Source: a virus. From it: DNA of 64,000 nucleotides. Location: positions 1 through 64,000 of IMG/VR virus record IMGVR_UViG_3300042452_000984; one strand, written 5' to 3'. A program made the position numbers and the translations under genes. Under the pieces are notes generated by a model. The model saw only the letters and a program-made list of their open reading frames with translations. It was not told where the DNA came from and did no database searches. This document shows, piece by piece, positions 1-44,767 of the stretch (position 1 is its first letter; every line of letters begins with the position of its first letter).

Positions 1-1
1 C

Positions 2-418
2 TTGGGTGCACTCACTAACGCTACCCACCTGGGTAACGGTATCTGGCGAGCGGTGGTGCAACTACCGGACGCTGGCGGCGAAGTGCGCTGGTTTGCCAAC
101 GCTGGGGCGGTGCCGCTGGGGATTGATGTGGTGGATGCGGCGCCATCCGTTAGTGTCGGTGAAAACATTGCCCAGTCAATTTGGACCTACAACCAAGGCG
201 ATCGCTCCCTTTCTGGCAGCCAAGCCAATCTATTTTCTAACCTTCTATCCTTGGTGCAGGCCTTCACCCTGGGGCGCCACCGCATCGACTTTGCTGCTAG
301 TACAACCACCCAGTACAACATAGATGGCACCGTGCGACAGGTATTCAACCTCAGGGACAAGGACGGCAGCCCCGCCACCAATGCTCAGACCGCCGTTGAT
401 CGGGTGCCCCAGCCATGA
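2..418 (+). CDS. Phage protein of unknown function, 5' end outside the window
   Basis: Open from the first base of the window to TGA at 416-418, so only the C-terminal part (about 138 residues) is visible and the true start lies upstream. The segment has a predicted beta-rich character and ends in a stretch with NIDGTVRQVFNLRDKDGSP, a pattern I associate with phage tail or virion accessory proteins, though I cannot name a family. Codon use (frequent CTA leucine, GCGATCGC) matches the neighbours. It is followed by a 247-base stretch with tandem repeats and then by rightward phage genes. Confidence 0.7.
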   Translation: MGALTNATHLGNGIWRAVVQLPDAGGEVRWFANAGAVPLGIDVVDAAPSVSVGENIAQSIWTYNQGDRSLSGSQANLFSNLLSLVQAFTLGRHRIDFAASTTTQYNIDGTVRQVFNLRDKDGSPATNAQTAVDRVPQP

Positions 419-8690: not shown

Positions 8691-8767
8691 GCTTTGGCAT
8701 TTCTCCGTAGCAAAAACGCTATAGACGTGTTAAAAATACACTTGTGTTTTATTTTTGCTACACGCCT

Positions 8768-9880
8768 ATGCCTGGCATTCGCACTTTATACCCCCGTGGC
8801 AGTAAAGAGGACGGTCTAGGCGTATTCCTAGCCAAAATGGGCAAGCACAAGCTTCTCACCCCTGCCCAGGAGATAGAGCTAGGGCGCCAAGTGCAGGAGG
8901 GGCTATGGGCGGCGGCAACGGTCCTAAGCGATCGCGATCGCCGTCAGCCACTACAAGAAGATTTTGAACGCCAGCACCGTAGCGAACACGGTGAACTACC
9001 AACCCAGGTGGAAATTGACACCTACTTTGACGAGGCACGGCAGCGGTTAATTGATACCTACCGCCAGGGCCACCCGGAGGCGACAGAGGCGGAGATGCGA
9101 CGCCATTTTGAACGGGTAGCCCGGCAGGGTAAGAAAGCTTGCGACCAGATGGTGATTCGTAACCTGCGCCTAGTAGTGAGTGTGGCCCACAAATATTCCA
9201 AGCACGGGCTAGAGCTAGGGGATTTAATCCAGGAGGGCGTCGTTGGATTAGTGCGAGGGGTGGAAAAGTTTGACCCGGCCAAGGGCTATAAATTTTCGAC
9301 CTATGCCTACTGGTGGATTCGTCAGGCGATCACCCGGGCCATCAGCAACAAGGCAAAGTCGATCCGCCTACCGATCCACGTCGTTGACGTACTCAATAAG
9401 GTGCGCCGCTATGGGCATGTTTTCCGGGCTCAGCACGGACGCTACCCAAGCGATCGCGAAGTGGCCGAGCATTTCTCCTCCCGCAATGGTGTCTCCGTCG
9501 ATGAATGGATGAGGCGGCTACAGCAGTTCAAGGCGATGAATATCGCGCCGACTAGCCTGGACCATGTGGTGGATAACGGCGATCGCGCTAAAAGCACAAT
9601 CCACGACCTTGTAGGGGGTATCGATGATAGTTCTGTCAGTTTGTTTGGAGATCAGGTTATCGAGGAATTGGGCGCCGCTGTGGTGGGCTTGCCGACCCGG
9701 GAGCGGCAGGTGGTGGAGCTAAAGTACGGGCTGCTCAGCGGCACACCCAAATCCCTCAGTGAAGTAGCCAGGGAGATGGATGCACCACTGGCGACGGTAC
9801 GAACGATCCACGTCAGGGCATTACGACGATTGTCTAGGGAGCGGCGAGGCTTGCGATCGCTGCTCGAAGGACTGGAGTGA
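8768..9880 (+). CDS. Phage-encoded RNA polymerase sigma-70 factor
   Basis: 370 residues from ATG 8768; an in-frame GTG at 8744 is less likely. Region 1.2 ([16 protein letters not shown]) comes first, then a charged insertion of about 60 residues, then the core: [16 protein letters not shown] and [20 protein letters not shown] (region 2.1-2.2), [19 protein letters not shown] (2.3-2.4), [15 protein letters not shown] (3.0), and a C-terminal [16 protein letters not shown] with [19 protein letters not shown] (region 4.2 HTH). This layout is that of primary-like (group 1/2) sigma factors rather than small ECF types. It probably redirects host polymerase to phage promoters. The downstream gene can start by a GTGA overlap at 9877. 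Confidence 0.93.
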
Positions 9881-9887
9881 ACCTCGG

Positions 9888-9915
9888 TAGAATGGGGAGT
9901 AAATTACCCCTCCCC
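9888..9915 (+). promoter_or_regulatory. Possible promoter -10 and leader hairpin
   Basis: TAGAAT (9888-9893) is followed by the inverted repeat GGGGAG (9894-9899) / CTCCCC (9910-9915) just before the ATG at 9922. The pattern TAGAAT-GGGGAGTAAATT resembles TAAAATAGGCAGTAAATT at 51172-51189, upstream of another late gene, so both may be promoters of one class. Confidence 0.4.
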
Positions 9916-9921
9916 TACCCC

Positions 9922-12879
9922 ATGGCTATTACTACCCTGCGCCCGCTGCGCCCCCGGCGGGCTATTTTATTGCGCAAAGACGCCCAGCTAGGTTTATTTG
10001 GCGGTGAGACTGAGGTTAAACCGACAGCGGCGGCCAAGCGTCGGGAGCGAATGCTGCAGCCCAAGGCACCGCCTAAGCCACCCAAGCCCAGCACCAGGGC
10101 GACAGCACCCAAAGAGGGTGACACCCGTATCAACCGGGCAGGCAATGAGGAGGTATTGCGGGCAGGGCGGTGGCGATTGGCTAGTAACCCTAAGGTGGTT
10201 GCCAAGGATAGGGGAAGCGCTGCGATCGTCCCGGTGGTGGAGGCGGAAAAGCCTATGCCTGAAATGGACGAGGACGCGATCGGCCCGGCTGTGGAAGAAC
10301 CCATGGTGGAGGCGAAACAAAACGTCAGCGCTGAAGAGGCAATGATGCAGCGCTATGCTGCACCTGATGTCACCTACACCTCAGATGGTCCGACGCAAGG
10401 CTTTCCTGGAGGCTACGACGAATCCTTTGCGCGAAAAACCGTTAGAAGCCTCAAGACGCGACTAGATCTTCTGCGTTCGAGCGAAGCGATCGCAAGGCGG
10501 AATGCCAAATATTCTCCGAAAGCTTATGCTGAAAGCTATGAAAAGCATCAAAGAACCAAGCAAGCATTTTTGTCAAGCTTGACGCCTTTAGATGACAGGC
10601 TAATAGACCTATTGCCGCCAGAAAATACTAAAAGGCAAGTTGAAATAGACAAAAAAATAGTAGAAGAGTGGATGGACTTGAACCCTGTCCGTGTTTCTGC
10701 TGACTACGTTCGAGTGCTAGCTGCAATGACTCCCGAGGAAGTCATAAAAAGGAACATGAGATCTGTTCCAAATCAAACCTTGTCTGACGAGTTTGCCAAG
10801 TATGCCGTAAGAAGCGGGCTGTATTGGACAGACTCCCGAACGGGAGGCAGCTTTCAGCTAGGGCCAGATTTAACTCGAGAACTTAAGCTAGCCGACAGAG
10901 CTAAGCGAATTTTTGGAATCAGTGTGGCGGAAACTCCAGACGACAGGGGGCAGATAAACAAACCTGCCGCCAAACCCAAAAGCCGACGCAAACCAGTAGA
11001 ACCGGAACCCACCGCCGTCCCCGCCGAGGTGATTGACGATGCACCCAAACCTACCAAGCTAGGCGATCGCATCCGAGCGATCGCCAATGACCTGCGTGAC
11101 GAAAATGATGAGCAGAAAAAGATCGCGGCCCGCATCCTAGGCGCAGCGGCCCAGATGGCACAGAACTACGACAACTTAGTGGGTGAAGTTGTGGATATGG
11201 TGGGCGAGGACTTGGGTGAGGACATCAGAAGCCTTAACCCAGACGCCACCCAGGCGGACGTAGAGATGGTAGCCAGAGACGGCGGCAACGAGCCACCCCC
11301 CACCCGACTGGCTGACAAAATGAAGGCGATCGCTAATGACCTGCGCAACGAAACCAACGAGCAGGTTAAGGCAACCGCCCGCATCCTTGACGCTGCCGCC
11401 CAAATCGCTCAGAACTACGACAACCTAGTCGATGAAGTGGCGGAGATGGTTGGCGAAGACCTTGAGGCGGGAGGGGGTGCGATCTCGCCTGCTGTGGAGG
11501 AACCCATGGTGGAGGCGGAGGAATCCCAGAAAGAAAAATTTGAGCGCATATACAGCCTTAGCACAGGCAAAAGGCTTAGAGCCTTAAATGAACTACCAAA
11601 CGATGAATGGCAAGCCTATTCAGAATGGGAAAAAAACAAAGGAAATGAGACCGCTTCTCCGCCAGAACCTCAAGAAAAAAGTGAGCCTGTAGCGGAAGAA
11701 GAAAAAGACGATCTTTTGTCCGATCCCTTCGCCGCCGACATTTCGCTATCTATGGCGCGACAGGCTCATGCAGGCACCTCTTTTGATCCAGACAAGCGCG
11801 GAGAAGATGAGGTCCGCGATTATGTGCAGCATTTACGCGCTGTCCAGAATAGCTTAAACAATATTGCCGAGACTCCAGAACAGCAAGCACTGGCGGCGGC
11901 GGAGTTTGATCGCTATCGGCAAGGCTACCAACGTCGCTACACCGACAGCCTAGCCCGCCGTGGTCGGATCGTATCTCCGATGATAGTTGGCCCAGCACGG
12001 TTCCCCGTTGACCAGATGGAAAAACGGCGTAGCTCCTACGAGCGATCTATCAATGAACTACTGGAATGGAGCGATCGCGCCCAAAACGCAGCCAAGAAGG
12101 CAGTCCTTGCCGCCGCCCCTGGCGGTGACCCGACCGCGCCAATATCCAGCGATGACCCTGACGCTATAAAAAAATTGCAGGCTCAGATTGATGCTGCTGA
12201 AAAGCGACAGGCGGCAATGAAGGCTGGCAATAAGATCGTGGTCGATAAGACTCTGACCGATGGTCAGAAACTTGCCAAGTTGATCGAGCTAGGCATTGAA
12301 AAATCTGATGCAGAATATGCACTTAGACGAGATGGTACTGACTCTCGCCCATACGGGTTCCAACGCTTTCAATTCTCTAATAACAGCGCCAACATTCGCC
12401 GGATGAAGCAGCGGATCGTCACATTAGAAAAAAAGCGTAGTCAATCAACTCGTTCCATCACTGTTGGCGACATCAAAATCACTGACGATGTAGAGGCAAA
12501 TCGTTTGCGGTTAGTATTCCCTGGTAAACCGTCAAGCGAGGTACGCGACAAGCTAAAGCGATCCGGCTTTAGGTGGTCTCCGAAAGAAGGCGCATGGCAA
12601 CGGATGAGAAGCAATGACGCTATTTATGCCGCAGAGCAAGCACTAGGGATCAAGCTCACCAAATCCTTGCCCCCTGGCCCCGTCTTCACCCTAATGGGCG
12701 CGCCCTATATCTTCGACCCTAACCGCGCCGTCCTACGCAAGGCTGGCACCAGTTGGGAGCAATTTGTGGCTGACCTCAGCAAGGAAGCTGATGACGACCC
12801 ATGCTGGAAGGGCTACGAGGCTGTAGGTATGAAAAAGAAACGCGGCAAGATGGTTCCGAATTGCGTCCCCATTAACTAA
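9922..12879 (+). CDS. Mosaic polyvalent protein with clamp motif, 985 residues
   Basis: I prefer ATG 9922 (a GTG at 9877 overlaps the sigma stop). The N-terminus has the recurrent module: ILLRK, then QLGLFGG at residues 22-28 (identical to the clamp-binding peptide of E. coli Pol II), then GDTRINRAGNEEVL and GRWRLA. Two copies of a roughly 55-residue helical repeat (RAIANDLRDE, AQNYDNLVGEV, MVGEDL) lie near 380 and 464. Near 860-905 is a compact domain (RLRLVFPGKPSSEVR, GFRWSPKEGAWQR) that I know from phage and plasmid polyvalent proteins. The C-terminus repeats the module (FTLMGAPYIF, VLRKAG) and ends in CWKGYEAVGMKKK and PNCVP, a short tail seen in other phage head-region proteins. Segments at 10330-10960 and 11510-11740 look markedly more A+T-rich. 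Probably a virion or injected protein. Confidence 0.8.
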   Translation: MAITTLRPLRPRRAILLRKDAQLGLFGGETEVKPTAAAKRRERMLQPKAPPKPPKPSTRATAPKEGDTRINRAGNEEVLRAGRWRLASNPKVVAKDRGSAAIVPVVEAEKPMPEMDEDAIGPAVEEPMVEAKQNVSAEEAMMQRYAAPDVTYTSDGPTQGFPGGYDESFARKTVRSLKTRLDLLRSSEAIARRNAKYSPKAYAESYEKHQRTKQAFLSSLTPLDDRLIDLLPPENTKRQVEIDKKIVEEWMDLNPVRVSADYVRVLAAMTPEEVIKRNMRSVPNQTLSDEFAKYAVRSGLYWTDSRTGGSFQLGPDLTRELKLADRAKRIFGISVAETPDDRGQINKPAAKPKSRRKPVEPEPTAVPAEVIDDAPKPTKLGDRIRAIANDLRDENDEQKKIAARILGAAAQMAQNYDNLVGEVVDMVGEDLGEDIRSLNPDATQADVEMVARDGGNEPPPTRLADKMKAIANDLRNETNEQVKATARILDAAAQIAQNYDNLVDEVAEMVGEDLEAGGGAISPAVEEPMVEAEESQKEKFERIYSLSTGKRLRALNELPNDEWQAYSEWEKNKGNETASPPEPQEKSEPVAEEEKDDLLSDPFAADISLSMARQAHAGTSFDPDKRGEDEVRDYVQHLRAVQNSLNNIAETPEQQALAAAEFDRYRQGYQRRYTDSLARRGRIVSPMIVGPARFPVDQMEKRRSSYERSINELLEWSDRAQNAAKKAVLAAAPGGDPTAPISSDDPDAIKKLQAQIDAAEKRQAAMKAGNKIVVDKTLTDGQKLAKLIELGIEKSDAEYALRRDGTDSRPYGFQRFQFSNNSANIRRMKQRIVTLEKKRSQSTRSITVGDIKITDDVEANRLRLVFPGKPSSEVRDKLKRSGFRWSPKEGAWQRMRSNDAIYAAEQALGIKLTKSLPPGPVFTLMGAPYIFDPNRAVLRKAGTSWEQFVADLSKEADDDPCWKGYEAVGMKKKRGKMVPNCVPIN

Positions 12880-12888
12880 CACTCCACC

Positions 12889-14541
12889 ATGAAAACTTTT
12901 ACCCTTGCAGGCGATCGCTACACCGCGATCGCGTCCCCCCGTGGCATCGTCTTTCGCAAAGCGGCGGACTTTGACACCCGGCTACCGATGGATGCTGAAC
13001 AGCGGGGCAGCATTGGCGCCGACCTGAATGCCTTGCTGTGTTCGCTAATAGACCTACGCCTATCGCTGCAACTAGCCCACTGGAATGTGAAGGGCATTAA
13101 TTTCCAGCAATTGCATGAACTTTTCGATAAGTTGCAAAAAAGCCTATTGCCCCACATTGACCTGGTGGCTGAGAATGTAGCCACCCTGGGGATGGTGGTG
13201 GTAGGCACTGCGGACGATATCGGCGATCGCACCATCCTGATGCCCTACAGCAATGGCAGCGACCAGTACGCCATCCTAGACGAACTAGCGGACCGCTACG
13301 CTTACCTAATCCGCCACATGATGGACTTGGTTGAGGAGCTACTGGCTGATGGCATCCAGGGGATTGCTGACGTACTGATAGGCATCCACATGGACATGGA
13401 ACGCAACGGCCTTTATTTTCTAGAATCCCATATCCCTAGCGCTAACCTACAGAAGGCAGCCAGGCGATCCATGCTGGAGGAGGGCGCTACCAAGGAACAC
13501 AACGGCGTCACCTACCGGCTCAATAAAAACCGTCGCTGGGAACGGAGCGATCGAGGCAGTAAGCCAGCCAGGAGCAGAAAGCCAAAGCCTCCCGGTGGTG
13601 TAGTGCCCGTCATCGCTATGGATGGCGCTAAAGCAAAAGGTAAGCCGAAAGCAATGCGCTTTGACAGCCGTCCCCCGGGCGGCGCCCAGGCGATGCAGCA
13701 GGGCAAGTTAAACGCTAAGGCACAGCGGGCGGCGGCCAAGGTAACGCCCAAAGCATCCCCCGCGAGTAAGCCTGCTAAGGCGAAAGCGGCCCCGGCGGAT
13801 AAGGTAAAGCCGAAGACGAAAAGAGCTGAGGTAAAGCCGAAGGCAGAGAAAGCCCAGCCAAAGGCAAAAGCGATCGCGTCCTATGGTGAGTTCAAAAACG
13901 AAGTTGCTAGGATCTACGACAAGCTCAACACTGAAGAAAACCTAGGCAACATGGTGCCTATCTATCGCATTCGCCGCGAGCTAGGCGATCGCGTCTCCCG
14001 TGCGCAATTCAGAGAATGGTTGCTTGACGTGCAAGCGGAGGACAAGATCCAAATGATGGGCGGTGTTACGGAGGGCTCAACCGACGATCAACGAGCCGAT
14101 GGCATTATGATGCCGGGCGGCAGAATTAGGTTTTACGTCAAAAAGCTAAAGGACTTTGACGGCAACGACGAGGCAGATTCATCTAACGCTCGCCAGCAGC
14201 CTAAGCCATCAACGCCGTTGCAACCTAAGGCGAAAACAACGCCCATCAAGTCCTACGACGACTTTAAGAGCGAAGTAGCCAGCACCTATGACAGGCTGAA
14301 CAAGGACTACAACCTAGGCGGTTTAGTTCCTATCCACCGCATCCGCCGCGAGCTAGGCAACCGTGTCTCACGCAAGCAGTTTGATAACTGGTTGATCGAT
14401 GTCCAGGTCGACGATCATGTGCAGCTGATGGGCGGCGCCTTGCCCAACGCTACCCAGGCAGACAAAGATGATGCCCTGCAGATAATGGGAAATCTCCGCT
14501 TCTACGTCAAAAAGTTGAGAGACTTTGGCGGTAAGCCTTAA
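12889..14541 (+). CDS. dps: Dps ferritin fused to two winged-helix-like repeats
   Basis: 550 residues. Residues 1-25 carry the module FTLAGDRY and GIVFRKA. Residues about 43-185 are a complete Dps domain: LNALLCSLIDLRL, AHWNVKG, LHELFD and HIDLVAENV. The five ferroxidase ligands are all present (H64, H76, D80, D91, E95) with exactly the spacing of E. coli Dps (H51, H63, D67, D78, E82). After Dps comes NGVTYRLNKNRRWER, then a Lys/Ala/Pro-rich linker like histone tails, then two copies of a roughly 95-residue domain (from about 331 and 455) with MVPIYRIRRELGDRVSR / LVPIHRIRRELGNRVSR and ending RFYVKKL. I judge these to be winged-helix DNA-binding domains. The protein would bind DNA and detoxify Fe(II)/peroxide, perhaps inside the head. 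Confidence 0.88.
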   Translation: MKTFTLAGDRYTAIASPRGIVFRKAADFDTRLPMDAEQRGSIGADLNALLCSLIDLRLSLQLAHWNVKGINFQQLHELFDKLQKSLLPHIDLVAENVATLGMVVVGTADDIGDRTILMPYSNGSDQYAILDELADRYAYLIRHMMDLVEELLADGIQGIADVLIGIHMDMERNGLYFLESHIPSANLQKAARRSMLEEGATKEHNGVTYRLNKNRRWERSDRGSKPARSRKPKPPGGVVPVIAMDGAKAKGKPKAMRFDSRPPGGAQAMQQGKLNAKAQRAAAKVTPKASPASKPAKAKAAPADKVKPKTKRAEVKPKAEKAQPKAKAIASYGEFKNEVARIYDKLNTEENLGNMVPIYRIRRELGDRVSRAQFREWLLDVQAEDKIQMMGGVTEGSTDDQRADGIMMPGGRIRFYVKKLKDFDGNDEADSSNARQQPKPSTPLQPKAKTTPIKSYDDFKSEVASTYDRLNKDYNLGGLVPIHRIRRELGNRVSRKQFDNWLIDVQVDDHVQLMGGALPNATQADKDDALQIMGNLRFYVKKLRDFGGKP

Positions 14542-18421: not shown

Positions 18422-18626
18422 TTGGCGTTCCTACCTAGAAGGCGTCCGGGATGCGCTGTGCGCCTTTGATAAGCCTACCGCGTTCGATATTCTGGAACTA
18501 GCGATGCGCTTTAACGAGACCGGCGATCGCGCTGACATTTACCAAGCCTGGCGCTCCATGTTTCCCCATTGGCGACCAACACGGGATATGGAGCGTCAAA
18601 GCTTCCAGCGTTGGGGCGTCGAATAA
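18414..18626 (+). CDS. Small protein before the minor head gene, 70 residues
   Basis: GTG start at 18414 overlapping the upstream stop; its TAA (18624-18626) overlaps the ATG of the minor head gene. Aromatic and acidic small protein (WRSYLEGVRDAL, AWRSMFPHW). Unrecognised; translational coupling argues it is real. Confidence 0.65.
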   Translation: MINWRSYLEGVRDALCAFDKPTAFDILELAMRFNETGDRADIYQAWRSMFPHWRPTRDMERQSFQRWGVE

Positions 18627-19657
18627 TGTGGTCCCCCCTTGCCCCCGATGACTTCAGCCAGTTTGAACCGACCGATATTATCGCGTTCCTGGATTGGTTT
18701 GAGCGACAGTACGAGGACGCGATCGCGCTTGGCATTGTCGATGGCTATGTGGAGGGGGTAACCGAACCCTATTTGGTGAATATCTCCACCGGCCAACCGA
18801 TACCGGAGTGGGTAGCGACCGTCCTCAAGGTACGAGAGGTGGCCCAGTGGGCGTACCAACAACAGGAACCGATTGCCGCCCGCCTGCGCCGCAACTTGGC
18901 CGCCATCATCCCGGATGACCAGGTGGCAGGCTACGCCGCCCGGTTCAGGGTGACACCGCAGGACATTGCTAACGTCCCCCCGGCGGTGAGGGAAAGCTTT
19001 AACCAGGGCGCTCGCTTTTCATTGGACTGGGTGAAACGCCTATCCGATGACGCCCGGGGCATGATGCGCGATGTGCTGGCGGTGGAGTCGCTAAAGAACC
19101 GTAACCCCGCCGGGGCCGTACCCATCCTTGAAAACCTATTGCGCCGCGATCTAATCGCCCAGGAGCTAGGCGCTGACCCTAGCGCTGTCACCCCGGCCAT
19201 GGTGCAGGAGTGGTTGATTAATACCGAGTCACGGTTGTTAAATGCGATCGCGTCCCGGGCGCAGACCATCTCCCGCACCGAATCTATGCGGATGATGAAC
19301 CTAGGCATCCTGGCCACGCTAGAGGCAAGCGAACAACGGTTGGCCTACGTCATGCCCCACGCGGGCTCCTGCGAGCATTGCCGCCGGTTGATTGACGGTC
19401 GCGTTTTTACAATAGAGGTGCTAAAGCGCAACCTATTTGCTAATTTTGGCGTTCGCCCTGATGCTTGGGTAGCCAGCCTACCTCAGCACCCTAACTGTCG
19501 CCATTCGGCTGGCAAGATACCGGTTAAATTCAGGCGCAAGCTTGTCAACCTGGACATCCCACCAGAGGGGCTGGTGCTGCAATACTACGGCTTGCCTGGC
19601 GGTAAAACATCCATGGATGCCTTGGAACTGCCAGAGGTGGAATGGCTAGAGCCCTAG
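18626..19657 (+). CDS. Minor head protein, MuF/SPP1 gp7-like
   Basis: 343 residues from ATG 18626 (TAATG overlap). The C-terminal half carries the phage head-morphogenesis signature: SRTESMRMMNLGILATLE, then GSCEHCRRLIDGRVF and LPQHPNCRHS, with the two Cys pairs and His typical of the MuF-type domain. Such proteins sit at the portal, act in head assembly and can enter the host with DNA. The N-terminal half is helical and unassigned. It ends 4 bases into a convergent minus-strand gene. Confidence 0.85.
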   Translation: MWSPLAPDDFSQFEPTDIIAFLDWFERQYEDAIALGIVDGYVEGVTEPYLVNISTGQPIPEWVATVLKVREVAQWAYQQQEPIAARLRRNLAAIIPDDQVAGYAARFRVTPQDIANVPPAVRESFNQGARFSLDWVKRLSDDARGMMRDVLAVESLKNRNPAGAVPILENLLRRDLIAQELGADPSAVTPAMVQEWLINTESRLLNAIASRAQTISRTESMRMMNLGILATLEASEQRLAYVMPHAGSCEHCRRLIDGRVFTIEVLKRNLFANFGVRPDAWVASLPQHPNCRHSAGKIPVKFRRKLVNLDIPPEGLVLQYYGLPGGKTSMDALELPEVEWLEP

Positions 19658-21617: not shown

Positions 21618-22156
21618 GGAGACTGTTATTGCTCGACCACACCGCCCTGGTGCAGCACCGGAATGGCCCCGGTGTCTACATCAACAACCGGGACAATATG
21701 ACATTGGTTCCAGGCATTCTAGGCGCCCTGGAGCCCTACGTTGACAGGAACTACAACGTCGCCATCTGTAGCAACCAGGGCGGCGTCGAGAAAGGCCACC
21801 TAGCGTTCGGTGCTTGCCAAAACCTATTCGGTGAAATGTTCAAGCTGTCCAACTATTGGGTTCAGGCCATTTGGTTTTGCCCCCTAGCCCGGGGCAGCAC
21901 CGGCAGTTATGCCATTCAAATGACGATGCCCTACGAACCCAAGACCTATACCAAATGCCAAAAGTATGCCACCACCGGCTACCGGATGCCCCAGGCGGGC
22001 ATGATTTTGGCCGCCATGGACTGGTTTGGGGTAACGCCTGAGCAGACCACCATGGTGGGCTTACAGCCGGAGGCTTACTATGCCGCCGCTGATGCAGGCG
22101 TCAAAAAGTTTGTCCACAGTTCGTACTTTGTTGAAAAAGCGGGAGTATTGCAATGA
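21614..22156 (+). CDS. HAD-superfamily phosphatase-like protein
   Basis: 180 residues with the fold signature of HisB/PNKP-type HAD phosphatases: LLLLDHTALV at the N-terminus (Asp8 as nucleophile, but His-Thr-Ala in place of the usual DxDGT), VAICSNQGGVEKGH as motif II, YRMPQAGMILAAMDWFGV in place of the Lys-Pro motif III, and TTMVGLQPEAYYAAADAGVKKF where motif IV normally has GD. Loss of the acid in motifs I and IV suggests weak or no phosphatase activity. Polynucleotide 3'-phosphatase ancestry would suit its place beside the clamp. Coupled to dnaN by ATGA. Confidence 0.7.
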   Translation: MRRLLLLDHTALVQHRNGPGVYINNRDNMTLVPGILGALEPYVDRNYNVAICSNQGGVEKGHLAFGACQNLFGEMFKLSNYWVQAIWFCPLARGSTGSYAIQMTMPYEPKTYTKCQKYATTGYRMPQAGMILAAMDWFGVTPEQTTMVGLQPEAYYAAADAGVKKFVHSSYFVEKAGVLQ

Positions 22157-23271
22157 AATTTACAGTAGATGCGGGTGATCTGGCAGAGGCGATCGCGCTG
22201 TGCGATCGCGCTATCCCTAAGCGCCCTAGCCGCCCTATCCTGGGCCACATGCTAATGCAGCTAGACAATGGCAGCCTTACCCTAAAAGGGTTTGACGAGG
22301 CGCTAGGGATTAGCTTCTCGTTGCCAGTGGATATGGAGCAATCCGGTGATTGTTGCATATCCCCAACCTACCTAAAGCCCATCCTGGAGCGCCTATCCGG
22401 GCAGGTGGCCTTAGACCTGCAATACCCTGTCCTGGTGCTAACCACCCTGGGCGCCGAGTACCGGATTAACACCCTCCTGGCTGAGGACTACCCCAACTTG
22501 CCCGAGGTGGACGGTACCCCGGTGGAGTTGTCTATCTCGTCAGAGGAACTACGAGCCGCGATCGCGGCTACGGTGTTCTGCGCCAGTACTGACGAAAGCA
22601 AGCAGGTACTTACCGGCGTTCACTTCTCCGTTACCCCCGGCGAAGGGGGGGAGGCAGGGGTGATGGAGTTAGCGGCCACCGATGGCCATCGGATGATCGC
22701 CTACCCGCTACCCGGTAGCGTTGTCATCCCCGATGACTATCGCCCCGTCACCCTGCCCGGGAAGAGCCTGCGGGAACTGCTAACCGTCCTGAAGGGCGAG
22801 GGTGCCGTCAAGCTGACGTTTGATGACGTGTCTGTGCGTGCCCTATGCGGGGACACCGAGCTCTATAGCCGGGTTATCGAGGGGCAATACCCCAACTACC
22901 GGCAGCTATTCCCCAAGGTGTTCTCTAAGGTGGCGACCTGCGATCGCAAGCCATTCTTAGCCGCCCTCGATCGCACCTTGGTGGTGGCCGGTGAAAACAA
23001 GGACATCGTTAAGCTGGAGTTTGACACCACTGGGCTGGTGATGAGTGCAGAGGCAAAAGAAGCGGCCAAAGCTCAGGAACATGTCGAGGGCGTAACCTGT
23101 AGCGAACCCATCACCCTAGCGGGGAACGGTAAGTACATCAAGGAGGCGCTAACCAATGCGATCGTGGGTGAAACCTTCACTATGGAAATGAATAAGCCAG
23201 AAAGCCCAGTGGTTTTTACAGATGGGTCCCCGGCGACCTATTTAATGATGCCCATTCAGATTAGGGGTTAA
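22153..23271 (+). CDS. dnaN: DNA polymerase III beta sliding clamp
   Basis: 372 residues, the normal length of bacterial DnaN. Three-domain pattern is intact: MKFTVDAGDLAEAIALCDRA, SRPILGHMLMQL and TLKGFDEALGIS in domain I; LRAAIAATVFCASTDESKQVLTG-type start of domain II followed by ELAATDGHRMIAYPL; IEGQYPNYRQLFP leading into domain III; and a C-terminal YLMMPIQIRG matching the ...MP(M/V)R-type end that lines the binding pocket. It is a bacterial-type beta clamp, not the T4 gp45 type. Within a coupled operon with SSB-like, HAD and DpdA genes. It could replace or compete with the host clamp at phage forks. Confidence 0.96.
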   Translation: MKFTVDAGDLAEAIALCDRAIPKRPSRPILGHMLMQLDNGSLTLKGFDEALGISFSLPVDMEQSGDCCISPTYLKPILERLSGQVALDLQYPVLVLTTLGAEYRINTLLAEDYPNLPEVDGTPVELSISSEELRAAIAATVFCASTDESKQVLTGVHFSVTPGEGGEAGVMELAATDGHRMIAYPLPGSVVIPDDYRPVTLPGKSLRELLTVLKGEGAVKLTFDDVSVRALCGDTELYSRVIEGQYPNYRQLFPKVFSKVATCDRKPFLAALDRTLVVAGENKDIVKLEFDTTGLVMSAEAKEAAKAQEHVEGVTCSEPITLAGNGKYIKEALTNAIVGETFTMEMNKPESPVVFTDGSPATYLMMPIQIRG

Positions 23272-24710: not shown

Positions 24711-27700
24711 ATGGTTCTTCCTCTGGAGGCTATCCTGTCCAAGTCAGCCGATATGGTTGTGGGCGGGGTAGCCTCCAATTTTTTTAGAGATCTTGACGGC
24801 GATGCCATTTGCCCGGACGCGATTCAACGCGCTATTCCTGGCTTCATGGCAACCCGTGGCCCGGACGGGCTAAAGGGTGGCCCCATTCGCCTGCACCATG
24901 GTTTTTGGGAGCGATTTCTAAAGCAGTCCATCTCTGCCCTTAATATTCCCTACGACCAGCAAGTGGGGCTACTTGCCGCGATCGCGCTCCCCCTGGGCCG
25001 GGTGACTGAGATGAGCGTTGATAGCGATGGCACTACGCGTTGGCGGGGTGTTCTATCTGGCGCTAACCCCATCGCCCGGGTGGTGTGGAATATGCTCAAA
25101 GAGGGCATGGTTCACCTTGGCGTTAGCGTTGGCGGCAAGATCAACGGTGTACGCCCCGGTAGAGATGCGATCGGGCGGACCTGTAACCTAATTACCGACG
25201 TGCGGCTCGATGAGCTCAGCATCACTGACAACCCAGCCAATCGATTAATTGAGTCCGAGACCCCCGACAATGGCGCGTACATTACCGCGCTTGCTAAATC
25301 TGTGGGTAATACCATGCTCGCTCAGAAACAACAGCCTTACATCTACCTGAATGGCATCGCCTATACCGCTCACCCTAGCGAGGAACATGGCATTGTCCTA
25401 CGCAAGGCAGGACGGCGGCGGGCACCCTCCCCGGGCCAGCTAGGCTTGTTTGGTGGGCACAATGAGGGCGATACCAAGGTAGAGGACGGTGTTACCTATC
25501 GGCTAAATAGCAATAGCCGGTGGGAGCGGATGGATAAACCCAAGGCCAGCGGTAAGCCGTCTGGCGGGAAGAAGAAGGCGGAAAAGCCTGCGATCGTCCC
25601 GGTGGTGGAGGCGGAGAAACGAGCAGAGACACCAGCAAAGGCAAAAGCGGCTAAGCCGAAGGCAAGACGACAAAAGGAGCCAAAACCATATCTAGAAGAT
25701 CAAAGCCCTTCATTATTGGCGGCAGAGCTAGACAAAATTAAGAATTTTCTGGCATTGGCTGATGCTGGACTTGTAAGCATAACTCCCAGAAAGCGCAAGC
25801 AAACCGAGGCTTACCTGAAGCAGGTCAAAGACGCACTTTTTGAAATAACCAAGCCTGACGACGACGCGCCAAGCATGTCTGACAACGATCTCCTGCAGGA
25901 GCTAGGCGTAGCAGGCATGTCTGACGACGACCTTATGCGAGAGCTAGGCGTTGAACCCGCCGCCCAGAACCCCGAACCCACCGTTGGCGAAATGCTGGAA
26001 CAGCAGCAAGCGGAGATAGCTGAGTCGAAACCAGTTATCTCAGGCAGGCAATTTGTCGAAGAGTTTATTTCCGCCTGGAATGACACCCATGGTTCAGAGT
26101 GGAACCGCGATGCTGCGGGGTACACAAAGGCCAAAATATGGGACAAAAAAGACGGGGAGATCCGGGTTTACTTTGGCTCCGTTAAGCAGCCATTGGTTTT
26201 CAGAAAGCAAGATAATGGCGAATACGTCGCCGCTGTAACCCCTGGTAAGTATGGACTTGACGAACAAATCGCCCCTATCCTTGACGATCTAAATTCACGG
26301 TTTTCTACCAAGCCTGAAAGCACTAAGGCTGACCAAGGCTCTGCCGGAACCCAGCAACGAGTATTGATGCAAGAAGACGAAGACGGCGTTGTTGCACCTG
26401 CAGGACAACACGAACGTGGCGTCCATATCGTGCGGGAATGGTACGAGTCAGAACCATCTCCCAAGCCCACCGTTGGCGAAATGCTGGAACAGCAGCAAGC
26501 CGCGATCGCGGATGAGCCTATGCCTGAGAGTGAGGCGATGGAGGGGGCGGAGGATGGTGCGGCACCCACATGGGAAGACGTGCCTCAACTTTTTGAAAGC
26601 GGTGACTACGAAAAAATCCCTCAAGCCCTAGGAGTAGATCCTAGATATGGGCTGTCCCCGAGTCAGGCGTCTAGGTTTCTAAACATCCTTGGAATAAAAG
26701 AAGCTAAAGCCAAAAAGATTCTTGGGCAGGGCTACCTAGAGCAAGAGCGAAAAGAATACCCAAGCATTCAACCCGATCCCGATCCTAAACGCTACTACGA
26801 TCTTGATAAGCTCGTTGACGCCATTAACGAGGCAAAGGCGTTTAAGGGAGTCAAGGCGCTGCAAAAACCTAAGGCAGAGCGCCCTAAGCGCGAACTAAAA
26901 GAAGAAGAGCTTACGCTAACGGATAATGACTGGAAGAGGCTAGCCAAGCTAAAAGGCGCCATGCCTTTCTCACCAAATTTTCTAGGTGATGGAGTTGGTG
27001 CGGAAACCTACTATTGGGTGCCAAATCATGCAATAAAAGACGCCGAATACCTAAAAAGAAAGTTAGGTTTTTATATAAAGCGCGATTTTAGCTGGAACAG
27101 AATAGAAGGCGCCAACTTTGTTATGCGGGAAGACGTCATTGATAATGTACTTGGCTACATTATTAAACCTAAATCCGAGCCCGCCGCCCAGGACCCCGAA
27201 CCCACTCTCACCAAATCTCTCACCCCCTCACTCCCCATGACTATCGATAACTTCCTCCGCAAAGCCCTGGGTAATCCTGGGCGTGAGTTTGGTTCTGGCT
27301 CATGGCGGGATACGGGCATCCCGGCGATGGGCCGTAAAGTTGACGCCAAAAGCCCGCAGCCCAAGGGCGGCAAAAAGGTACAAATGGATGAGTCCGGTAG
27401 TGCCCATGCCGGTAAGGGTATCGGTGGCAAACAACCCAAGGCCCATCGCCCCTACTCTTCCGGCGGCATGCCCCCCACCGATGTATTTGGTATCACCATC
27501 ACCCAACTAACCCGCAACTTGGCCAAAGCCTGCTACATGGACAAAGATGCCTGGGGTAGCCCGGAGACCGTTTCTTTCTTGACCGACAGCGCCAGGGCGA
27601 TCGCGGGCATGACTGACACCCCGACCGACCCGATGGTGAACTTTGTCCGGTTTTTGCAATACTGCACCCGTTTCGCCCAAGAATTGCCGTTTATGAACGA

Positions 27701-27875
27701 CTACCAGGCGGCGGGGACGGTGAAGGCGATGAATGCCGACCTAACCAAAGCGCTGGACGAATTCGTAGAGAAGATGCCTGAGGAGCTAAAGGGAAAACCT
27801 TTGCGCCCTGCCGGTTCACCCGGCGTTGTGGGCATCGACGTTCAGTTTCCCCAACAGTACGTTATTTACTCCTAG
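24711..27875 (+). CDS. Prohead serine protease with long modular extension
   Basis: 1054 residues, far longer than the usual 200-300 of the family. Residues 1-190 are an XkdF/S78-type prohead protease: FFRDLDGDAICPDAI, IRLHHGFW (His62/63), GRVTEMSVDSDG, MVHLGVSVGGKI (Ser139, nucleophile position) and VRLDELSITDNPANR. Then the recurrent module: YIYLNGIAYTAHPSEEHG, IVLRKAGRRRAPSPGQ, clamp-type QLGLFGG (243-249), GVTYRLNSNSRWER. The rest is a mosaic: Lys/Ala-rich linker with VVEAEK as in the 9922 protein, duplicated MSDNDLLQELGV / MSDDDLMRELGV, two PTVGEMLEQQQA repeats, and A+T-richer inserts at 25680-26400 and 26570-27170. The last 200 residues (ITQLTRNLAKACYMDKDAW) are a separate helical domain, possibly a scaffold. 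It immediately precedes scaffold and capsid genes. Confidence 0.85.
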   Translation: MVLPLEAILSKSADMVVGGVASNFFRDLDGDAICPDAIQRAIPGFMATRGPDGLKGGPIRLHHGFWERFLKQSISALNIPYDQQVGLLAAIALPLGRVTEMSVDSDGTTRWRGVLSGANPIARVVWNMLKEGMVHLGVSVGGKINGVRPGRDAIGRTCNLITDVRLDELSITDNPANRLIESETPDNGAYITALAKSVGNTMLAQKQQPYIYLNGIAYTAHPSEEHGIVLRKAGRRRAPSPGQLGLFGGHNEGDTKVEDGVTYRLNSNSRWERMDKPKASGKPSGGKKKAEKPAIVPVVEAEKRAETPAKAKAAKPKARRQKEPKPYLEDQSPSLLAAELDKIKNFLALADAGLVSITPRKRKQTEAYLKQVKDALFEITKPDDDAPSMSDNDLLQELGVAGMSDDDLMRELGVEPAAQNPEPTVGEMLEQQQAEIAESKPVISGRQFVEEFISAWNDTHGSEWNRDAAGYTKAKIWDKKDGEIRVYFGSVKQPLVFRKQDNGEYVAAVTPGKYGLDEQIAPILDDLNSRFSTKPESTKADQGSAGTQQRVLMQEDEDGVVAPAGQHERGVHIVREWYESEPSPKPTVGEMLEQQQAAIADEPMPESEAMEGAEDGAAPTWEDVPQLFESGDYEKIPQALGVDPRYGLSPSQASRFLNILGIKEAKAKKILGQGYLEQERKEYPSIQPDPDPKRYYDLDKLVDAINEAKAFKGVKALQKPKAERPKRELKEEELTLTDNDWKRLAKLKGAMPFSPNFLGDGVGAETYYWVPNHAIKDAEYLKRKLGFYIKRDFSWNRIEGANFVMREDVIDNVLGYIIKPKSEPAAQDPEPTLTKSLTPSLPMTIDNFLRKALGNPGREFGSGSWRDTGIPAMGRKVDAKSPQPKGGKKVQMDESGSAHAGKGIGGKQPKAHRPYSSGGMPPTDVFGITITQLTRNLAKACYMDKDAWGSPETVSFLTDSARAIAGMTDTPTDPMVNFVRFLQYCTRFAQELPFMNDYQAAGTVKAMNADLTKALDEFVEKMPEELKGKPLRPAGSPGVVGIDVQFPQQYVIYS

Positions 27876-28743: not shown

Positions 28744-29733
28744 ATGACAAACGCTGCGCTTACCCGTCGGGCGCTACTGAAATCGCTAGGCATTAGCGAT
28801 GGCGGTGGTGCCGAGGTTACCCTCCAAACCACGATCGCCTCCGAGGTGATCCCCCTGATCCGGCAACAATGCTTCATGCGGCAGATCGCTGACCGCAGCA
28901 AGAGCCTGATCAATATGACCAAGCCCAAGATCCGCATCCCCAAGCTGGTACGCGCCCAAGGTGCCTACAGCGTCAAAGCGGGCCAACCGGCGCCGGAATT
29001 TAAGGCACGACTCGACAGCATCGACCTAGTGCCCGAGAAGCTGATGACCTGGCTACCCGTGGACCAGGAAGTATTCGAGGACAGCACTATTCGAGATATT
29101 GAAGGGATGCTCAAAGAGGAAATGGCACGGGAATTTGCCCAGGCGGAAGAACTTGCCTTCCTGCTAGGGGATACCACCGTCGACCATGGCCCCGGCGACC
29201 CTAAGAATGTTTTTAATGGGTTATTCGCCCAAGCTGGAGCAACGCCCTACACCTACGACGCCTCCCTTGACACCAGCGCTAACGCTGTTGAGGCCGGTAC
29301 TGTCACCAGCAACCTGGTACGCGCCATGCGCTACCTAGGCATCTACGGACGCAATAAGCGCGACGTAGTGGTGATGGTGGGCCTAGCCTGGGAGGAAGCC
29401 CTCCTGCGTAACCGTAGCTTCCAAACCATGAGCAGCTACGCCTATGGCTCTGGCGCTGGTATCTTCACCGGTGAGATCGGACGCCTAGCCGGTGCCCCGG
29501 TCATTGCTACCACCTTCCTGGATGCGCAACCCGGTGAAACCTACGGAAAAGCCCTGGTAATGAACCAATCAGCCTTTGCTATTGGGGACTGGCAGCGATT
29601 TAACATCAGGGTATACAACGAGATCCTGAGCCAGACAGACCAAACTGCAATCAGGGCAAGGGAACGTTTAGCCTTTACCGTTCGCTACCCTGAAGCTATT
29701 GTTGAAATTCTCAACGTTCCGTCTCAACCGTAG
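28744..29733 (+). CDS. Major capsid protein, HK97 fold
   Basis: 329 residues; AAGGA precedes the ATG. The order of elements fits HK97-type capsid proteins: an N-terminal arm (ALTRRALLKSLGIS), SEVIPLIRQQCFMRQIADRS, KPKIRIPKLVRAQGAYSV and AGQPAPEFKARLDSIDLVPEKL (E-loop region), the spine helix MLKEEMAREFAQAEELAFL, then FNGLFAQAG, a P-domain with NRSFQTMSSYAYGSG and LAGAPVIAT, and a C-terminal ERLAFTVRYPEAIVEI. Position after protease and scaffold confirms it. Confidence 0.92.
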   Translation: MTNAALTRRALLKSLGISDGGGAEVTLQTTIASEVIPLIRQQCFMRQIADRSKSLINMTKPKIRIPKLVRAQGAYSVKAGQPAPEFKARLDSIDLVPEKLMTWLPVDQEVFEDSTIRDIEGMLKEEMAREFAQAEELAFLLGDTTVDHGPGDPKNVFNGLFAQAGATPYTYDASLDTSANAVEAGTVTSNLVRAMRYLGIYGRNKRDVVVMVGLAWEEALLRNRSFQTMSSYAYGSGAGIFTGEIGRLAGAPVIATTFLDAQPGETYGKALVMNQSAFAIGDWQRFNIRVYNEILSQTDQTAIRARERLAFTVRYPEAIVEILNVPSQP

Positions 29734-43963: not shown

Positions 43964-44767
43964 ATGAAAATTTATACCCTTGCCGGGGTGCCCTATATCC
44001 CAGTGGTGACCGCTGGGGGCATTGTCCTAAGGAAAGCGGGACGACGGCACCAAGTGTCGCCAGGGCAGTTAGAGTTATTTGACACCCAACACCAGCAGGG
44101 CGAAACCCGCACCAACCAAGCGGGCCACCAGGAGGTGCTGCAAGAGGGGCGGTGGCACCTCGCTAACAGGACTGGACAGCCACAGCAGCAGCCAACAAAG
44201 AATCCTGCCACAATGCGATGGCACGTTACAGCGGCAGGAGATTTAATCCGGGAGAAAGGCTTTCAAGTTGGGCTTGGCGGTGGAGCGGGCGGTCCTCTGT
44301 CCGGCAAAGGCATTTCAGTTTGGAAAGACAAACAAAAGGCAGATCAATTTCACAAGCAAATGCAAGAACTTGAAGACATAAGGTCTTCGGGTGATCCATT
44401 AAAAGCGGCAGAAGCTGCCACCAACCAGCCAATTAGCTTAACTGACGGTATGGCAGGGCTGTGGGCTGGAAAGTTAGGACGCGCACTAGACTCCCGAGAA
44501 CGTGCAATCATTCATGCTCAGTCGCTACTCAGCCCATACATACCGCCTGACTCGTTCTTTGGAGATGGGCCAAGGAGAAAATTTGAAAATCTCGCCGTCC
44601 ATGTTTCCTCTGAGTCGCAAGAAAATAGCGATGGATGGGTTAATGATGACGAAGAATTGCATAGTCCTGAAAAGGTAAAGCTGGCACAACCGCAGCAGCC
44701 AACGCTCACCATAGAAGGACTCCATGCTCTACGCCAACAAGTTGCCCAGGAGTTAGCTAGTGGATAA
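43964..44767 (+). CDS. Module-bearing protein with clamp motif, 267 residues
   Basis: The first 70 residues are the clearest copy of the recurrent module: IYTLAGVPYIPV, GGIVLRKAGRRHQVSPGQ, QLELF at 35-39 (clamp-type pentapeptide), GETRTNQAGHQEVL and GRWHLAN. The remainder (from about residue 85) is unrelated to the other module proteins, more A+T-rich in DNA, and has helical KDKQKADQFHKQMQELEDI and a C-terminal IEGLHALRQQVAQEL. Payload function unknown. GTG of the next gene overlaps its end by 8 bases. Confidence 0.75.
   Translation: MKIYTLAGVPYIPVVTAGGIVLRKAGRRHQVSPGQLELFDTQHQQGETRTNQAGHQEVLQEGRWHLANRTGQPQQQPTKNPATMRWHVTAAGDLIREKGFQVGLGGGAGGPLSGKGISVWKDKQKADQFHKQMQELEDIRSSGDPLKAAEAATNQPISLTDGMAGLWAGKLGRALDSRERAIIHAQSLLSPYIPPDSFFGDGPRRKFENLAVHVSSESQENSDGWVNDDEELHSPEKVKLAQPQQPTLTIEGLHALRQQVAQELASG

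Follow-up and report, generated by a model that had tools for sequence, protein, structure and literature searches.

The window, i.e. the whole stretch of 64,000 nucleotides analyzed here (positions 1–64000 of an 82,631-base virus record), carries on the + strand a gene (12889–14541, ATG start) coding for a 550-aa protein in which a Dps ferritin is combined with two phage tags, a basic linker, and two winged-helix arm modules. On the evidence of homology, the arm modules derive from a cyanobacterial three-gene operon, designated operon A: both copy the C-terminal domain of its first subunit. The fusion is tentatively interpreted as a modular protein that bears tags, is probably associated with the virion, and has arms that could serve as decoys against host ATPase–nuclease systems, gathered on a Dps hub. 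We infer its packaging in the virion, the decoy action, and a defence role of the host operons; the fusion may be a decoy shielding incoming viral DNA more than a DNA-packing protein.

Structure of the fusion gene and its Dps domain

The protein begins with an N-terminal tag of 28 residues (MKTFTLAGDRY...GIVFRKA; 12889–12972, tag HMM 7e-15), followed by the Dps ferritin domain (residues 34–186; 12988–13446), the second tag EGATKEHNGVTYRLNKNRRWER (residues 198–219; 13480–13545, tag HMM 4e-12), a basic histone-like linker with a net charge of +24 and a pI of 11.3 (residues 220–330; 13546–13878), and the two arm modules (residues 331–424 at 13879–14160 and residues 454–548 at 14248–14532), all on the + strand. 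The tag motif, basic linker, and two winged-helix repeats that the initial annotation had described as fused were thus all located behind the Dps domain. The linker is a good candidate for DNA contact. The same fusion is encoded by two sister phages, in loci L003 (669 aa) and L004 (872 aa).

The Dps domain passes the curated threshold of Pfam Ferritin (4e-12; 46.7 bits vs a cut-off of 24.5), matches E. coli Dps over residues 34–182 of the phage protein (1e-17) as well as the phage Dps family phrog_3636 (7e-16), and misses the NCBIfam threshold for the E. coli Dps equivalog (102.6 vs 114 bits). By these profile matches the phage protein is a member of the wider Dps family, outside the E. coli Dps equivalog. 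All five ferroxidase ligands, H64 (13078), H76 (13114), D80 (13126), D91 (13159), and E95 (13171), align to those of E. coli Dps, which bears out the claim that their E. coli order and spacing are kept. Within the first 219 residues three related phages show 3–5 nonsynonymous vs 25–31 synonymous changes (dN/dS 0.03–0.05), which means strong purifying selection on the Dps part. A host-derived remnant, the possibility against which the initial annotation had been hedged, is ruled out, because this selection maintains the fusion gene in three phages. The most likely role of the Dps part would be to multimerise the protein and to remove iron, and it may also give protection against peroxide or iron.

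Arm modules and their host origin

Modules 1 and 2, of 94–95 aa each, belong to the same family and are 56% identical to each other; their conservation across five phage contigs, together with this identity, led to the rejection of a chance repeat as their origin. The structure prediction advised for both repeats gave a winged-helix topology in each (AlphaFold2, mean pLDDT 72). Foldseek searches with the arm and host models returned compact matches that were mostly winged helices, none of them at E<0.001, and the arm profile matched no sequence in the PDB.

The best identity of the winged-helix modules to host proteins is 56–58% in the window phage, 58–62% in L003, and 62–64% in L004 (overall about 55–64%). 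A Phormidesmis priestleyi protein (L019) is 56% identical to module 1 (E 1e-37) and 58% identical to module 2, and at 33 of the 37 host-conserved positions the phage consensus is the host residue. In a tree of 51 domains, calculated from few columns and with many forks unresolved, phage modules branch inside the host family in two positions that starred branches separate, the group of the window phage joining Leptolyngbya and Phormidesmis sequences; by this tree the winged-helix domain has been captured by phages at least twice. Homology to a part of a host system and nesting within the host family, two properties expected of a host-mimic decoy, were both found.

The initial annotation spoke of DNA-binding arms. 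The modules are, however, near neutral (net charge −1 for module 1 and +1 for module 2), and they are captured host C-terminal domains, not generic DNA binders. The host C-terminal domains have net charges of −1 to −8 and the host N-terminal parts are positive in 13 of 14 proteins; the basic N-terminal winged helix of the host protein is absent from the phage copy. The neutral or acidic character of the modules argues for a protein partner over DNA.

Host operons

The host protein consists of about 220 aa with two winged helices (AF2 model). A module-alignment scan of one genome per species, covering 84,980 bacterial and archaeal species, yielded 78 loci, all cyanobacterial by title. Operon A, with the winged-helix protein gene first, followed by those for an AAA/KAP-like P-loop ATPase and a DUF1802 protein, is intact in 68 of the 68 loci with enough sequence (L025, 7620–11774, and 67 further loci within L019–L096). 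The DUF1802 protein of L025 gives a borderline match to Mrr_cat (19.6 bits vs a cut-off of 21), while those of L065 and L098 have no nuclease match. The winged-helix protein is patchily distributed, being encoded in 75 of 291 cyanobacterial genomes. The neighbourhood of operon A is shared in about 25–32 loci, mainly of Nostocales, as expected of an inherited gene, and this fits an inherited housekeeping locus and an inherited defence locus equally. PADLOC found nothing beyond weak matches in operon A, one copy of which lies close to Septu ptuAB. None of its three genes codes for a HerA component, which places operon A outside the HerA/Orc-type systems.

The arms comprise two to four modules over the three phages: the winged-helix pair is constant and the extra modules differ, with one in L003 and two in L004. 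The extra module of L003/L004 shares 51–76% identity with the C-terminal end of a second, rarer host protein (5 of 194 genomes). This identity marks it as copied from the C-terminal domain of that protein, which is the counterpart, in another operon (B), of the operon A winged-helix protein. The largest L004 insert had no match among 281 cyanobacterial genomes. Operon B codes for a winged-helix-type protein (without a Pfam match, its class being read from the sequence pattern), an ATPase with AAA_16 and HerA_C whose PADLOC match is mad8 (HerA, 6e-22), and a DUF559 nuclease. An AAA ATPase, HerA, a restriction-type nuclease, and a winged-helix-type protein thus occur together, as in HerA/Orc-type systems; the combination of the first three is an anti-invader pattern known from comparative genomics (PMC10853773, PMC12839542). 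A homologue of the operon-B-type module is also found among many other regions of a 2044-aa phage protein (L129, 3729–9863).

Neither operon was found described in the literature, and a search for DUF1802 gave only unrelated work. Both are regarded as candidate defence systems because one and the same part of one operon has been copied by phages repeatedly.

The phage genome and the tagged proteins

HIP1 (GCGATCGC) occurs 135 times vs 1.08 expected; its over-representation is a known bias of cyanobacterial genomes, and the host is therefore taken to be a cyanobacterium. A contractile sheath and baseplate genes are present alongside the major capsid protein (28744–29733, +; phrog_10, 2e-30), a MuF-type minor head protein is encoded at 18569–19657 (+; phrog_581, 5e-7), and a serine-type integrase, the large terminase, and the portal are located in the 64–82.6 kb part of the record. 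The best explanation of the data includes a tailed phage of filamentous cyanobacteria. An ORF reads across from the last bases of the record to the first (end of L014 and window 1–418), and in a sister record the portal lies at the opposite end; therefore the genome, classified in IMG/VR as linear, is probably circular or permuted. No long terminal repeat was found at the record ends. If the genome is circular, the Dps gene lies ca. 14 kb after the portal, on the same strand, before the MuF gene, the tagged gene at 24711, and the capsid gene.

The N-terminal tag of the Dps fusion is common to the proteins encoded at 43964 and 24711 and to the C-terminal part of that encoded at 9877 (tag HMM 2e-14 to 9e-12 on the others), and the second tag is common to the fusion and the proteins at 1118, 9877, 24711, and 43964, the E-values expressing mutual similarity and not independent detection, as the profiles were built from these very tag sequences. 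In the adjacent tagged gene (9877–12879, +) the N- and C-terminal tags are conserved in the sister phages while the middle is swapped—in the L003 counterpart the exchanged middle is a helicase. A stretch resembling the tag (YVFNANNRWQRY) was seen by eye in a portal-adjacent protein of 499 aa. The tagged 1054-aa protein encoded directly upstream of the capsid genes (24711–27875, +; tag HMM) has no Pfam or PDB match; a phrog_9427 match (E 0.006), the sole lead, hints weakly at a head maturation protease, and the searches gave no confirmation of a prohead protease. A head link of the Dps fusion is plausible.

Some further features of this region may be listed. The tag regions of the genes at 9877–12879, 24711–27875, and 43964–44767 contain QLGLFGG or QLELF, which resemble the beta-clamp binding motif, and the phage encodes its own DnaN (22153–23271). 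A phage sigma-70 factor gene (8744–9880) stands immediately upstream of the tagged genes. The product of 9877–12879 ends with CWKGYEAVGMKKKRGKMVPNCVPIN, an ending also present in L009 (10430–12400); the motif turns up again in several PHROG families without an assigned function.

Dps and winged-helix doublets in other phages

The initial annotation considered a viral Dps with DNA-binding arms unusual. A phage Dps itself is not, as it forms the family phrog_3636 and is annotated in Proteus, Salmonella, and Synechococcus phages; stand-alone phage Dps proteins have already been reported (PMC8008677, PMC6669764). It is the fusion of a Dps with tags, a linker, and captured host-derived arms for which no description was found in the published literature. 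The suggested search for other phage Dps fusions led, besides the same fusion in L003 and L004, to an independent one in L007 (308–2578), where Dps is joined to a HAD-like region and to a prohead protease of the Caudovirus type (Peptidase_S78, 5e-46). Dps adjoins head genes in the phage loci L005 and L008, but in Proteus phage Privateer and Escherichia phage Bas88 its neighbours are genes for nucleotide metabolism, so that the notion of phage Dps as always head-linked was rejected. In plasmids, the matches among the ten records listed were Dps-only. The Dps gene of L012 is flanked by two genes (8714–9652 and 10372–10797) whose products both carry a KANPYRDGxxGRF tag, one of them with a zeta-toxin domain, so that this phage Dps, too, is surrounded by a tag system.

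In unrelated cyanophages the winged-helix doublet occurs without Dps: in ORF078R of Planktothrix phage PaV-LD and inside the head-gene clusters of the Mu-like phages L017/L018 and L124, where, as in PaV-LD, it sits on other tags. It is also found, with an N-terminal Rho_N domain, in the probable prophage contig L097, and L125 contains a single diverged copy of the module. The gene next to the L017 doublet has the same N-terminal tag and codes for a domain resembling an ADP-ribosyltransferase, whose PF03496 match (5e-4) reaches 19.8 bits against a cut-off of 23.4. In PaV-LD, ORFs 061, 065, 079, 080, and 081 carry all or part of the N-terminal tag of ORF078R, as judged by eye.

These comparisons bear on two other explanations. 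According to the first, which we consider rather unlikely, a Dps with DNA-binding arms condenses phage DNA and shields it, whether in the head or inside the host, with the winged helices borrowed as plain DNA binders. The intact ligands, the charge of the linker, the fold of the arms, the head-linked genes near Dps in L005 and L008, and the prohead protease fusion in L007 all agree with it, but the modules are neutral or acidic, the basic N-terminal winged helix of the host was left uncopied, and the doublet exists without Dps in Mu-like phages and PaV-LD. Moreover, each of the two module families traces back to an ATPase operon, with a clear nuclease match in one case and a borderline one in the other; generic DNA binders would give no reason to expect this. 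The second, an ordinary auxiliary Dps limiting iron and peroxide damage in the infected photosynthetic cell, with the tags and arms merely localising it, appears more doubtful still. It draws on the wide occurrence of stand-alone phage Dps, that of cyanophage S-SRM01 included, and on a proposal that gut-phage Dps limits such damage during infection (PMC8008677), yet it leaves unexplained the repeated capture and tandem duplication of one host domain on unrelated tags, as well as the swapping of the extra modules.

Proposed mechanism

In the preferred decoy interpretation the tags would direct the protein to the head, into it or onto its surface, together with the rest of the tagged payload, for action early in the next infection. 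Dps would multimerise it, possibly into 12 copies that together show at least 24 modules, with the linker holding the multimer on DNA. The copied domains would be a dominant-negative decoy, in competition with the host subunit for the ATPase or nuclease that it partners, and would keep the host system away from phage DNA, while the ferroxidase would remove iron and peroxide.

Repeated capture of one domain, its tandem duplication, and the different tags fit a decoy occupying the partner of the host subunit. The recurrence of the tags on the 24711 and 9877 proteins, the position of the portal and Dps genes in one same-strand block if the record is circular, the patchiness of the host protein, the defence-like composition of operon B, and the operon A copy near Septu ptuAB also speak for this interpretation. 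Against it stand the inherited-looking neighbourhood of operon A and its at most weak PADLOC matches, the Dps genes of other phages among nucleotide-metabolism genes, the weak protease reading of 24711, and a circularity that is deduced for a record classified as linear; a winged helix may also bind DNA despite a neutral charge. At about 9 nm, a Dps dodecamer in its folded state is too large for a tail tube, so the protein would have to be unfolded for injection or else be synthesised anew. The fullest form of the decoy interpretation, with a Dps cage displaying dozens of domains from the adaptors of two host ATPase–nuclease systems as a DNA-bound, virion-delivered, multi-target decoy, and with the DUF1802 operon truly antiviral, is unlikely. 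The weakest explanation, that the arms recruit the host ATPase–nuclease complex for the phage, e.g. against host or rival DNA, is in keeping with the conserved domain surface (33 of 37 positions) but is very improbable, as the phages show no sign of keeping more than the C-terminal domain and doublets block more readily than they recruit.

If the decoy interpretation is true, a viral ferritin, a shared-tag payload, and host-mimicking domains are joined against ATPase–nuclease operons, a combination not found in the literature. The question is directly testable with laboratory cyanobacteria and the isolated phage PaV-LD.

Comparison with known systems

The fusion shares with Dps ferritins and phrog_3636 the ferritin fold, as read from its sequence, and the five ligands in their order and spacing, and adds phage tags, a basic linker, and two to four arm modules, which come from the host in every case with a traced origin. 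Its tandem doublet is of the same family as that of PaV-LD ORF078R (34–39% identity), which differs in having no Dps and another N-terminal tag, wholly or partly common to neighbouring proteins. On the host side, operon B resembles the capture systems of HerA/FtsK with Orc/Cdc6 (PMC10853773, PMC12839542) in its AAA_16, HerA, winged-helix-type protein, and restriction-type nuclease, whereas operon A has a DUF1802 protein and no HerA.

In T4, Ip1–Ip3 are delivered with the genome and block specific nuclease systems, including type IV nucleases (PMC12373910). The role proposed for the window protein, which would likewise be packaged, is alike, that of a head-delivered blocker of host nuclease systems, but that paper does not present the Ips as copied host subunits. 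Polyvalent proteins (PMC5512222; no ferritin or Dps is mentioned in the text of that paper) are likewise multi-domain, with an exchangeable payload, and belong to phages with a portal and terminase. The window phage, too, combines several exchangeable domains in one polypeptide and has a portal and terminase, and the L129 protein looks polyvalent; the window phage nevertheless differs in using a system of shared short tags, not one giant protein.
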